Shown piece by piece: positions 54,712 through 59,625 of a DNA stretch of 64,000 nucleotides (the first letter of the stretch is position 1; every line of letters starts with the position of its first letter). Below the pieces are notes generated by a model. It ran no database searches, had not been told where the DNA came from, and worked only from the letters and a program-made list of their open reading frames with translations. Origin of the DNA: Nitrospira sp. (GTDB taxonomy: Bacteria; Nitrospirota; Nitrospiria; Nitrospirales; Nitrospiraceae); assembly GCA_030123605.1 (NCBI GenBank), contig CP126123.1, positions 3,997,237-4,061,236 on the forward strand. Direction: 5' to 3'. The position numbers were made by a program, and so were the translations under genes.

Positions 54712-57472
54712 GTTTCAATCCTCGCCCTTCCCGAAGGAAGGGCGCTACTATGAGTTGTCGAGGGAGAGGGAGTATATACCAATGTTTCAATCCTCGCCCT
54801 TCCCGAAGGAAGGGCGCTACGGAACACCACTCGGGCGAGGAGGGATGAGACATGTTTCAATCCTCGCCCTTCCCGAAGGAAGGGCGCTACTTGCCAGCGG
54901 TCGGAGCCCACTCGAAGTCATGATGTTTCAATCCTCGCCCTTCCCGAAGGAAGGGCGCTACTAAAACGCTCAAACCTCGCTCCTATCAACCAATTGTTTC
55001 AATCCTCGCCCTTCCCGAAGGAAGGGCGCTACAGCGCCGGACATGCGAGAAAGCAACCCGTAATGGCGTTTCAATCCTCGCCCTTCCCGAAGGAAGGGCG
55101 CTACCGCAGCCAACAAACTGCCTGCCGAAAAATCGGCGGTTTCAATCCTCGCCCTTCCCGAAGGAAGGGCGCTACGCAGCACCGGGCGACTTGTGACCCC
55201 GGCGATCAGCGTTTCAATCCTCGCCCTTCCCGAAGGAAGGGCGCTACGAAACGGCGGAGGTGCAGGACCGTGCCTTGTGGACGTTTCAATCCTCGCCCTT
55301 CCCGAAGGAAGGGCGCTACTGCACGCCGCGTGGGCAGTCGGCGATCTGGTATGTGTTTCAATCCTCGCCCTTCCCGAAGGAAGGGCGCTACCGCCGGCGG
55401 CGTCGACATTCAGAACGATCTGTCGGTTTCAATCCTCGCCCTTCCCGAAGGAAGGGCGCTACTAGGTGCCAGCCTGCGCGGTGAGGCGGCTCGATCGTTT
55501 CAATCCTCGCCCTTCCCGAAGGAAGGGCGCTACGCACAGGAGTTACAGCCATGATCAGGACGGCGATGGTTTCAATCCTCGCCCTTCCCGAAGGAAGGGC
55601 GCTACCCGCAGCACGCGGCCATCGGCCAGATAATTCGCCGGTTTCAATCCTCGCCCTTCCCGAAGGAAGGGCGCTACGGAAGAGTCATAGCTCGATCGAC
55701 GAGCCGGCGGTGTTTCAATCCTCGCCCTTCCCGAAGGAAGGGCGCTACGGACACGTCCGTGAAACGCTCACCTGGTCCTATGCGGTTTCAATCCTCGCCC
55801 TTCCCGAAGGAAGGGCGCTACACTGCCGCCATCACCACCCTCGATGGCACCGCCCGTTTCAATCCTCGCCCTTCCCGAAGGAAGGGCGCTACTTGCCAGC
55901 GGTCGGAGCCCACTCGAAGTCATGATGTTTCAATCCTCGCCCTTCCCGAAGGAAGGGCGCTACTGTCGCGATTGCCACCTCGCCAACAGCCAGTTGAGGT
56001 TTCAATCCTCGCCCTTCCCGAAGGAAGGGCGCTACGTTGGGTACTCCGACCGCTCCCACGTGGAACAATGTGTTTCAATCCTCGCCCTTCCCGAAGGAAG
56101 GGCGCTACTTCGGGCAGCGCGGCTATGCCGGCGCCAAGTGGTGGTTTCAATCCTCGCCCTTCCCGAAGGAAGGGCGCTACGCCTGGATCGACATTCAATC
56201 GCTGCATCAAGACTGGTTTCAATCCTCGCCCTTCCCGAAGGAAGGGCGCTACATCCGGCGGGGCGAAACTCTGCCGGGAGATAGTCGAGTTTCAATCCTC
56301 GCCCTTCCCGAAGGAAGGGCGCTACATCCGGCGGGGCGAAACTCTGCCGGGAGATAGTCGAGTTTCAATCCTCGCCCTTCCCGAAGGAAGGGCGCTACGA
56401 CGAGCTGGGAGCCGAGGCCGCCGAACGCGACCTGTTTCAATCCTCGCCCTTCCCGAAGGAAGGGCGCTACGAGTGATTCAGGCGTCAACGAGAACCAGCG
56501 CATAGTTTCAATCCTCGCCCTTCCCGAAGGAAGGGCGCTACCGGTCGGATTGGTGGTGCTGCCATCGCGAAACGCGTTTCAATCCTCGCCCTTCCCGAAG
56601 GAAGGGCGCTACGAGAGGTTCAGGGCGGCATGGGCGCCGCGATTGAGTTTCAATCCTCGCCCTTCCCGAAGGAAGGGCGCTACCCCGGCGCGACCGTTGC
56701 TGAGACGAACCGATCCGGTTTCAATCCTCGCCCTTCCCGAAGGAAGGGCGCTACAGAGGACAGGCGATTAGCTCAGCGCGCTGTGGATGTTTCAATCCTC
56801 GCCCTTCCCGAAGGAAGGGCGCTACGATTAAACCCCTCCGGGCCGTAATCGACTTTCAACGTTTCAATCCTCGCCCTTCCCGAAGGAAGGGCGCTACGTT
56901 GGGACGGGATCAACTGGGACCGATGCACAAAGGGTTTCAATCCTCGCCCTTCCCGAAGGAAGGGCGCTACGTCACGCTCTCGCTCGAACAGCATGCCCAA
57001 TACCTGTTTCAATCCTCGCCCTTCCCGAAGGAAGGGCGCTACGGGGCGAACACTCGGGCGAGATAGAGGACATCATGTTTCAATCCTCGCCCTTCCCGAA
57101 GGAAGGGCGCTACTTGCCAGCGGTCGGAGCCCACTCGAAGTCATGATGTTTCAATCCTCGCCCTTCCCGAAGGAAGGGCGCTACCGCCGCCATTGGGCGG
57201 GCGCACGATGGTGCTCGCGTTTCAATCCTCGCCCTTCCCGAAGGAAGGGCGCTACTACTGCCCACCGTCGGCGTGTTGATCAACATGGGTGTGTTTCAAT
57301 CCTCGCCCTTCCCGAAGGAAGGGCGCTACCGCGCGGCGTGCAGCAGACCACGAGTGCGGCCAAGTTTCAATCCTCGCCCTTCCCGAAGGAAGGGCGCTAC
57401 GCCGCAATTTGTGGATGCGTGTCGAGGATGGCACTGTTTCAATCCTCGCCCTTCCCGAAGGAAGGGCGCTAC
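54712..57472 (-). CRISPR. Type I-C CRISPR array, 39 repeats and 38 spacers
   Basis: Repeats are 37 nt. On the plus strand each starts GTTTCAATCC and ends GGGCGCTAC, the reverse of the usual ...ATTGAAAC end. Transcription is therefore leftward, from the leader beside cas2. All 39 copies look identical by eye, including the distal one at 54712-54748. The crRNA strand has a 9-bp stem CGCCCTTCC/GGAAGGGCG capped by TTCG, then an 11-nt handle AGGATTGAAAC, as expected for Cas5c processing. Spacers are 33-37 nt. One spacer occurs three times (54891-54924, 55893-55926, 57114-57147). Another is tandem (56253-56288 and 56326-56361). Confidence 0.99.
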
Positions 57473-57570
57473 CGCGTGAGGAAAACCTCACGCTTTTCCC
57501 AGTGGTTCGCCCGTCGCCGACGCGAACCGCCGATCATCATAAAAGACTTCTGGCGATTGACGATCGCCAT
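57469..57570 (-). CDS. Possible 33-residue leader peptide in the CRISPR leader
   Basis: ATG at 57570 follows GAAAGGAGGT (core AAAGGAGG at 57587-57580) by 9 bp, the best Shine-Dalgarno in this locus. The frame gives MAIVNRQKS...EKREVFLTR, basic (SRRRR run), and stops with TAG at 57471-57469 inside the first repeat. The final codons overlap the leader inverted repeat. No homologue is known to me, so expression is unproven. Confidence 0.4.
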   Translation of the reverse strand: MAIVNRQKSFMMIGGSRRRRANHWEKREVFLTR

Positions 57571-57650
57571 CGCTCGAAACCTCCTTTCAGTTCAGCTGGT
57601 TGCACCCCGCGCGATCCCTAGCGCTTTTCGTCAGCGCTTGGGGTTCGCGC
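57473..57650 (-). promoter_or_regulatory. CRISPR leader
   Basis: 178 bp between the cas2 stop and the first (newest) repeat. It contains an 8-bp perfect inverted repeat GCGTGAGG/CCTCACGC around AAAA at 57474-57493, touching the first repeat. It also has an inverted pair GGCGAT/ATCGCC near 57552-57568 and direct repeats AGCGCTT at 57620 and 57633. A strong Shine-Dalgarno and 33-codon frame lie at 57469-57570. TATGAT is a weak -10 candidate. Confidence 0.8.
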
Positions 57651-57941
57651 TCACAACACCAGCGGCTCGTTAAAGTCCACGGAGGTGTCTACACCGAATA
57701 TCTGCACATACTTTTCTTTCGGTTCCACCAACCGATAGACTCGAAGACTGTCTTCCTTCTCATCGATCAGTTCAACCAAGCGCCGTACGAGTTCTTCAAA
57801 TTGCATCTCGTTCACCGAACATTCAAACACCGACTTCTGGACCCGCTGGCCGAAATCCTGGCAGGCTTGCGCGACTTTCCGCAACCGCCGCCGACCTCCC
57901 GCTGATTCCGTTGCGACATCATAGGCGACCAGCACATGCAT
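57651..57941 (-). CDS. cas2: CRISPR-associated endonuclease Cas2
   Basis: 96 residues from the ATG at 57941; TAGGAGG lies 5 bp upstream and includes the cas1 stop codon. MHVLVAYDV contains the conserved Asp after strand 1. QKSVFECSV and YRLVEP follow the Cas2 ferredoxin fold. With Cas1 it forms the spacer integration complex. The cas genes run cas3-5-8c-7-4-1-2. Confidence 0.95.
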   Translation of the reverse strand: MHVLVAYDVATESAGGRRRLRKVAQACQDFGQRVQKSVFECSVNEMQFEELVRRLVELIDEKEDSLRVYRLVEPKEKYVQIFGVDTSVDFNEPLVL

Positions 57942-57950
57942 CACGGCCTC

Positions 57951-58982
57951 CTAACGAGCGAGAAAGGGCGGATAGGCTGCCAAGTCACCGCGCAAGACAC
58001 GCGCCAACAATCGGGCCTGCACGTGCGGGACCAATCCCAGCGGCATTTTTTGATCCAGCACCGGATGGGTGATTTCTTCCTGCTTACGTTTCTGATAGGC
58101 CACGATCACTTCTTTACGCGCCGCCTCTTCCAGCTGCACGGCCCCGCCGGGTCGCGCATGAAATTGATTGGCTGTCACCTGGCGTCGATTGATCAATGTA
58201 AGGGCTAAGCGATCGGCGAATGGGCTCCGCAACTCTTCCATGAGATCCAGCGCCAAAGCCGCCCGCCCTGGACGCAACGCATGCAGAAACCCCATTTGGG
58301 GGTCCAGGCCTACTCCCTCCAATGCCGCCACACAGTCGTTCATCAGCAAGGCATACAGAAACGACAGCAGCGCGTTCACGGGATCGGTCGGCGGGCGGCG
58401 GTTTCGCCCGTTCAAGGTAAACGTGGCGCGATCTTCGCGGACCATCCGATCGAACGTCGCAAAGTATTTTCGCGCGGCCTCGCCCTCCAAGCCACGGAGG
58501 TGTTCGAGGTCCGGAGACAGGGGGATGCGTCCCAGCACGTTGGCCAGCGCTTCCGCGGTCTGTCGCAAGGCCTCCCCGTCATCGGGCCGATCGGTCTCCC
58601 GCGCCGCCCGCAAGACGATCTGCCGGCTGTTCTGAATTTTTCCGCCGACGAGATGGCGGGCGATTGTCAACGTGGTGTCCGGTTCACGCATGGCTGCATG
58701 TTGGGCGCAGCGCAGCAATACATTGCCTGAGATCGGCCCCTCCACCCGCGCTTGAAATCGCCCGTTCCGATCGAGGAATACGACGAACCGTCCGTCTTGC
58801 GCACATCGCGCCAAGGCAGCCGGGCTCACCAGCACATCGCCGAAGCAGACGATGCCGCCCAGATGGTGGATCGGCACCTGGAGCTTCGTCTCCCGCTCGA
58901 CCTCCACTCGTAACGTATCGTGATCCAGGCGGAGATACGCACCTTCGGTCGTCAGGTAGAGCGTGTTGAGTAACTGATGCAT
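57951..58982 (-). CDS. cas1: CRISPR-associated endonuclease Cas1 (type I-C)
   Basis: 343 residues from the ATG at 58982; MHQLLNTLYL is the normal I-C Cas1 start, whereas a TTG at 59009 would overlap cas4. The N-terminal beta-domain has HHLGGIVCFGDVLVSPAAL. The C-terminal helical domain has NALLSFLYALLMNDCVAALEGVGLDPQMGFLH (in outline), with the catalytic Glu in AALE, and DLMEELRSPFADRLAL. It is the integrase for new spacers. It lies 7 bp after cas4. Confidence 0.96.
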   Translation of the reverse strand: MHQLLNTLYLTTEGAYLRLDHDTLRVEVERETKLQVPIHHLGGIVCFGDVLVSPAALARCAQDGRFVVFLDRNGRFQARVEGPISGNVLLRCAQHAAMREPDTTLTIARHLVGGKIQNSRQIVLRAARETDRPDDGEALRQTAEALANVLGRIPLSPDLEHLRGLEGEAARKYFATFDRMVREDRATFTLNGRNRRPPTDPVNALLSFLYALLMNDCVAALEGVGLDPQMGFLHALRPGRAALALDLMEELRSPFADRLALTLINRRQVTANQFHARPGGAVQLEEAARKEVIVAYQKRKQEEITHPVLDQKMPLGLVPHVQARLLARVLRGDLAAYPPFLAR

Positions 58983-58989
58983 CGGGAGT

Positions 58990-59625
58990 TCAACTCGGGT
59001 CCTGTACAATGAACAGGGTGCGGACCAGGGCCTCCGCCCGTTGCCGCTCGCCGATCACCGAGGGCATGCAGGCTTCGCTCAAGGAACAATGTGCACAGCG
59101 ATGATCGTTCACCGGTGGGGGAATCGTCTTGGCCTCTACCATGCTCCGGATCTGTGTCACGACCTCGGCGACTCGGTCGCGTAAGACCCTCGTGAACATG
59201 ACTTCTCTCCGCCGTCGGGAACTATGGTGATAAATCGCGCCGCGTGGGACCGGTTTTCCGGTCATCTCTTCCAAACAGAGCGCCTGGGCACAGAGCTGGA
59301 GATCATCGTGCTCCTTCTCTCGGTGTGGCCCATGTTTGTATTCGACGGGATAGGGCATCTCACCGTGAAACTCGACCACGTCAGCCTTTCCGATCAACCC
59401 CAGGACCTTAGACCATAGGGGTAACGCCCGTTCAATCCGTACCCCGGCCTGCTCCTCTGTCTCCGGCTCATCCACCCGCTTATGGACTGCTTGGCCGCGC
59501 AGTGTGTAGAGATTCTCATCGAACGTCTGCTCGACATGAATCAACGCACACTGACGCGGGCAGTAGCTCCAGTGCTCAAGCGCGGAGATCATGACGGGGT
59601 CGTGTTCTTCTGCCACAACGGTCAT
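58990..59625 (-). CDS. cas4: Cas4 nuclease (type I-C)
   Basis: 211 residues. [21 protein letters not shown] has the N-terminal Cys, and [10 protein letters not shown] the three C-terminal Cys that hold the 4Fe-4S cluster. The RecB nuclease core shows GKADVVEF and VEYKHG (catalytic D, E and K). Cas4 trims prespacers and selects PAM orientation. It overlaps cas7 by ATGA. Confidence 0.95.

Follow-up and report, generated by a model that had tools for sequence, protein, structure and literature searches.

A type I-C locus with an open reading frame across the leader-repeat junction

The stretch of Nitrospira DNA analysed here (64 kb, hereafter the window; the genome is a single contig of 4.32 Mb) contains a type I-C CRISPR-Cas locus with genes for Cas1c, Cas2, Cas4, Cas7/Csd2, Cas8c/Csd1 and Cas5c, as identified with NCBIfam and Pfam. 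All cas genes lie on the minus strand in the usual I-C order, including cas1 (positions 57951-59009) and cas2 (57651-57944), and the array follows cas2. The CRISPR array (54712-57472, minus strand) consists of 39 identical 37-nt repeats and 38 spacers. Its repeats match Rfam CRISPR-DR9 on the same strand as the cas operon and, as is characteristic of type I-C, the cas set adjoins an array whose repeat ends in GGATTGAAAC. The spacer ATCATGACTTCGAGTGGGCTCCGACCGCTGGCAA is present three times at non-adjacent places (57114-57147, 55893-55926 and 54891-54924, i.e. spacers 5, 22 and 36), and spacers 16 and 17 form an identical adjacent pair. A Fic/DOC-family gene (Pfam PF02661; 54307-54702, plus strand) is convergent with the array and ends about 10 nt from its leader-distal end.

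The leader comprises the 178 nt between the stop codon of cas2, which ends at 57651, and the leader-proximal repeat 1 (57472-57436), all on the minus strand. On this strand the Shine-Dalgarno (SD) sequence AAAGGAGG (57580-57587) is separated by a 9-nt spacer (TTTCGAGCG) from an ATG (57568-57570) that opens a mini-ORF of 33 codons with the product MAIVNRQKSFMMIGGSRRRRANHWEKREVFLTR. The mini-ORF (57469-57570, 102 nt) is closed by a TAG (57469-57471) that coincides with bases 2-4 of repeat 1, and all these elements were found where the initial annotation had placed them. Its further proposal that the stop is preserved as spacers are added also holds: GTAG opens all 39 repeats, the oldest one included, so each newly made leader-proximal repeat retains the stop codon.

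In the window, AAAGGAGG was found only five times on both strands together, and on the minus strand just two AAGGAGG sites lie 4-12 nt before a start codon. The SD duplex was calculated at -12.5 kcal/mol in the window leader vs. -8.2 to -8.7 kcal/mol in relatives. A promoter scan gave one weak match, located inside the mini-ORF and too weak to place the transcription start.

Start, frame and stop in the leaders of the genus

With Cas1 as a probe, we collected 35 loci within the class, as well as 80 in a species-level genome collection, and the leaders were obtained as the sequence cut from cas2 to the first repeat. Cas1 of the Nitrospira relatives was 91-93% identical. A search of the genus with leader DNA returned no leaders besides the cas-linked ones, and among Nitrospinota relatives just two further loci were found, both distant. 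The motif GGTTCGCG (57521-57528, minus strand), which lies at a constant distance of some 56 nt from repeat 1 in the I-C leaders of many phyla, served as phase reference; frame 0, read as GGT TCG CGN, is the frame of the mini-ORF.

All 12 same-genus I-C leaders contained an invariant AAAGGAG, a start codon in the same place (ATG or GTG, the TG being invariant) and an open frame free of indels, and in each of them the TAG was supplied by repeat 1 (GTAG or ATAG). No invariant runs in the genus leader were longer than AAAGGAG and GTTCGCG. Start, frame and stop-in-repeat were kept in the genus and also in the family despite a divergence that leaves 55-95% pairwise nucleotide identity within the genus, which supports translation as the initial annotation had supposed. 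When openness of the frame was tested within the genus alone, the result was modest, with P 0.03 from simulation and 0.004 from column shuffling.

Openness of the frame across Nitrospiraceae

Across the 99 nt common to the 27 Nitrospiraceae leaders, frame 0 was open in 26 of them, frame 1 in none and frame 2 in nine. Leaders were then simulated along the cas1-cas2 tree from an open ancestor, with the observed count of changes in each column. The mean number of open leaders was 10.1 under a global substitution model and 13.5 under a column-specific one, with maxima of 21 and 25, and 26 was never reached in 600 runs each, nor was the openness of frame 0 reached in 300 further simulations. Column shuffles left 5.1 leaders open on average and 21 at most; none of 3000 reached 26. 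The controls were not significant, with P 0.52 for frame 2 and P 0.92 for the upstream stretch. Analyzed by clade, openness gave P 0.03, <1/1500 and 0.013, the last value referring to g15B without L020 and L024, and for g1 and g15A taken together it was modest (P 0.023).

Because the frame had been fixed by the initial annotation before the sister genus was examined, the sister-genus part is an independent test. In eight leaders of the sister genus (subgroup g15A) the SD sequence is mostly absent at that place, and an ATG follows directly after GGATCGCG at -81, a motif of which the window leader carries an upstream copy (57609-57616, minus strand). From this ATG the same frame is kept for 46 codons and reaches the repeat TAG in seven of the eight leaders, the exception being L028 with a 2-nt insertion before its repeat. 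In a second subgroup, g15B together with one further genus, the start is mostly an ATG at -57 that has no clear SD; L024 carries a stop and L020 lacks the ATG.

Judged from these sequences, the mini-ORF is more than a product of chance, and the decisive points are the conservation of start, SD and frame in the genus and an openness in the family that goes beyond the phylogenetic simulation. As only translation reads a frame, the avoidance of stops in one specific frame implies translation.

The encoded peptide

In the family leaders, substitutions were spread equally over the three codon positions (194/193/212), and pooled dN/dS values were 0.91, 0.64 and 0.80, i.e. near 1. By these codon-position and dN/dS tests we found neither synonymous bias nor purifying selection on the peptide. 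The synonymous bias that had been suggested as a check thus came out negative, and the idea that a small basic peptide is the product of interest is left unsupported. The peptides differ greatly between clades, and no match was obtained in Pfam or NCBIfam.

In g15A the residues M-L-T, KRFGECEG and GSRRK are shared, and the substitution score beats column permutation (P 0.005), a score to which stop avoidance contributes. Overlapping DNA motifs likely suppress dS somewhat, and a weak constraint on the g15A peptide is conceivable. Equal changes over codon positions together with dN/dS of 0.64-0.91 indicate that the frame was kept and not the peptide; the simplest reading of the alignments would be an avoidance of stops with hardly any restriction on the amino acids.

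RNA structure and other leader motifs

Two inverted repeats with compensatory changes in the genus were detected on the minus strand: hairpin H1 (TGGCGAT-N5-ATCGCCA, 57551-57569), with the start codon's TG in its 5' arm, and H2 (57503-57529) around GGTTCGCG. For H1 and H2 together, 13 cells were changed on both sides compared with 4.0 in shuffles, a value that none of 500 shuffles reached, and sliding of the pairing partners abolished the signal. Within H1, the two paired start-codon letters, U and G, are invariant while their partners vary (G to A, C to U), as is expected if those letters also serve as start codon. A covarying counterpart of H1 is absent in the sister genus g15A. The window leader folds better than 200 of 200 shuffles (z -4.8). 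H1 was also considered as a terminator and rejected: it is terminator-like in the window, but the T-run is missing in relatives. The covariation of H1 over the start codon suggests a control of initiation; at the same time, a stem pairing the start codon would lower initiation and counts against the translation reading.

In many phyla, cas2 and repeat 1 lie about 180 nt apart. At 57609-57649 (minus strand) the leader carries several copies of (G)GTTCGCG / CGCGAACC, direct as well as inverted. They are located at -121, -87 and 0 relative to the motif, keep a fixed spacing across phyla and are likely integrase or regulator sites. A perfect 8-bp inverted repeat, GCGTGAGG-TTTT-CCTCACGC (57473-57492, minus strand), abuts repeat 1; it occurs only in the leader of the window genome and is missing from the aligned relatives.

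Leaders beyond Nitrospiraceae

When I-C leaders were compared more widely, an SD-like patch (-62 to -27 from the motif) was present in 51% of 85 nonredundant leaders vs. 25% of shuffles and 1% on the other strand. A start codon followed the patch in 28 of 43 cases, with 18 +/- 3 expected, largely due to Nitrospira. Among 46 distant leaders, frame 0 was open in 20, as compared with 14 and 15 for the other frames, and a general I-C rule of a kept frame was rejected on these counts. The whole design is shared by single distant leaders, namely L055 from Nitrospinaceae (AGGAGG, GTG, 31 codons, TAG in the repeat) and L053, and L093 from an actinobacterial MAG has an SD and an ATG reading into the repeat.

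The pattern that would speak against the initial annotation, nucleotides kept while the frame is broken, does occur outside Nitrospiraceae, namely in Desulfuromonadia and Brocadiales. In both groups SD-like patches are common, and the start or the frame drifts. In Desulfuromonadia an ATG after GTTCGCG at -71 was tried as a second conserved ORF and discarded, as the frame shifts by one base among close relatives (L074 vs. L080, L085, L092 and L100) and L081 has lost the start. Brocadiales keep AAGGAGGTGAT, and the start position reads TTG, TAG or ATT. In L103, L125, L126 and L128 of this group (A)AGGAGGTGAT is kept, a near-perfect complement of the 16S rRNA 3' end, and the codon after the patch is not kept (TTG, TTG, TTG and TAG, respectively; ATT in L101). 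Perhaps the Brocadiales patch binds the 30S subunit without a fixed ORF. As far as these leaders go, the kept frame is a trait of the Nitrospiraceae lineage on top of a wider SD-like element and no I-C rule.

boxA was also searched for in the leaders. Of 113 nonredundant leaders, seven carried a boxA (TGCTCTTTGACA-like), positioned some 80-122 nt ahead of the repeat, at a null rate of 0.2%; the 21 nonredundant Nitrospiraceae leaders had none. The seven leaders (L122, L123, L137, L140, L146, L147 and L148) are distant I-C-like ones from class searches around L101 and L055. None of them has an SD-like patch, and the one-sided probability of this exclusion is ~0.01 for seven leaders whose relatedness was left uncorrected.

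Interpretation

Selection appears to have kept the start signal and the openness of the frame and not the protein sequence, a pattern suggesting that ribosome passage over the leader is what matters; the lack of peptide constraint combined with the need for openness up to repeat 1 points to such passage. Ribosomes at the leader-repeat junction, as put forward in the initial annotation, fit these results well, and the leader is likely translated as far as the junction. In the type I-F system of P. aeruginosa, Rho has been shown to terminate transcription within CRISPR leaders, and the authors state that the phenomenon applies to I-C and I-E as well (PMC6700203).

In the mechanism that we propose, a ribosome would initiate in the leader (here at AAAGGAGG and the ATG), traverse the 99-nt frame and be released at the TAG that opens repeat 1. 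Ribosomes would shield the naked leader RNA from Rho until the first structured, Cas-bound repeat emerges, and in the genus the hairpin H1 over the start codon probably tunes initiation. We infer all three components, i.e. the translation of the leader, Rho as the target and H1 as the regulator. The leader is G-rich and not C-rich, which is atypical of strong Rho-loading sites. Our preferred reading, that the Nitrospiraceae I-C leader is translated, that ribosome passage to the array and not the peptide has been kept and that this passage likely serves as a shield against Rho, is held tentatively, as a proposal that falls just short of being probable.

In CRISPR arrays boxA acts through boxA/Nus antitermination, and it may do the same anti-Rho job in other I-C leaders. 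Ribosome traffic would then be an anti-termination device for a non-coding array, evolutionarily interchangeable with boxA and with its stop built into the repeat, an extension that we consider possible and advance with more reserve.

The leader could also be untranslated, with the SD-like patch and the open frame as by-products of integration or transcription motifs (the GGTTCGCG repeats and the inverted repeats) and with openness a matter of chance shared by descent. Such an explanation draws on the conservation of length and motifs well outside the ORF, on SD-like patches without a kept frame in I-C leaders of many phyla, on the covariation of the inverted repeats and on dN/dS near 1. However, openness is specific to a single frame and goes beyond simulations in which the per-column changes and the ancestry were retained, the start-codon letters are fixed while their pairing partners change, and the sister genus has another start in the same frame; all in all we regard an untranslated leader as rather unlikely. 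Unlikely, too, is a regulated leader-ORF switch, in which H1 or the position of the ribosome would set array transcription or processing according to temperature, a protein or the amino-acid supply. The covariation of H1 in the genus, its place over the start codon and the strong folding of the window leader agree with a switch, but neither a conserved terminator/antiterminator pair nor a run of one regulatory codon is present, and the sister genus lacks a counterpart of H1.

That the ORF yields a small basic peptide with a function in the CRISPR system would agree with the shared residues of g15A and with its substitution score, in part a matter of stop avoidance. We judge it improbable, given that the peptides of the clades differ so strongly, that codon positions change equally, that the protein family databases returned no match and that the DNA motif accounts for the invariant GSR. 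The initial annotation had further suggested that acquisition could be coupled to translation, and in this way leader translation might tie spacer acquisition to growth. The ORF does end exactly at the integration site, but integration acts on DNA, no link was found and no obvious mechanism offers itself, which leaves this idea unsupported and very improbable. Finally, the RNA toxin CreT of CRISPR-regulated toxin-antitoxin systems combines an SD, an AUG or GUG and a stem-loop (PMC8501985), all of which recur in the leader. The mini-ORF, however, lies in an array leader and has 33 codons; there is no degenerate CreA repeat (no match of at least 22/37 outside the array in the window), and the start is not followed by a conserved pair of identical rare codons, codons 2 and 3 being different and variable. 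On the missing CreA and the missing tandem rare codons CreTA was ruled out, and a CreT-like element is barely credible here.

Relation to known systems

CRISPR leaders are regarded as non-coding DNA with roles in setting integration and promoting transcription. If a selected open frame in the leader is real, leader translation belongs to array expression in some bacteria, and two questions would be joined, namely the way in which long, untranslated pre-crRNAs evade Rho and the reason for the differences in leader type from lineage to lineage. In a search of largely open-access literature, no paper on a translated CRISPR leader ORF was found.

In boxA/Nus antitermination and in the relief of Rho by PhrS (PMC6700203), as here, an element of the leader is thought to keep transcription going to the array. 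The boxA/Nus elements and the SD/ORF of Nitrospiraceae occupy a similar place upstream of repeat 1; unlike in boxA systems, the Nitrospiraceae element consists of an SD and an open reading frame, without boxA in the leaders tested. CreTA (PMC8501985) resembles the mini-ORF in its SD, AUG/GUG, short ORF, stem-loop and link to CRISPR, whereas the mini-ORF has neither a CreA pseudo-repeat nor tandem rare codons and sits in the leader of the array. Other type I-C leaders with integration motifs share the conserved GGTTCGCG and its constant spacing from repeat 1, but here a kept reading frame crosses the motif. Leader peptides and upstream ORFs of bacterial operons act in attenuation and polarity control, and their peptide sequence is often unimportant. 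Like the operon leader peptides, the mini-ORF is short, preceded by an SD and located in a hairpin-bearing 5' leader; unlike them, it precedes a non-coding CRISPR array and has its stop codon within the first repeat.
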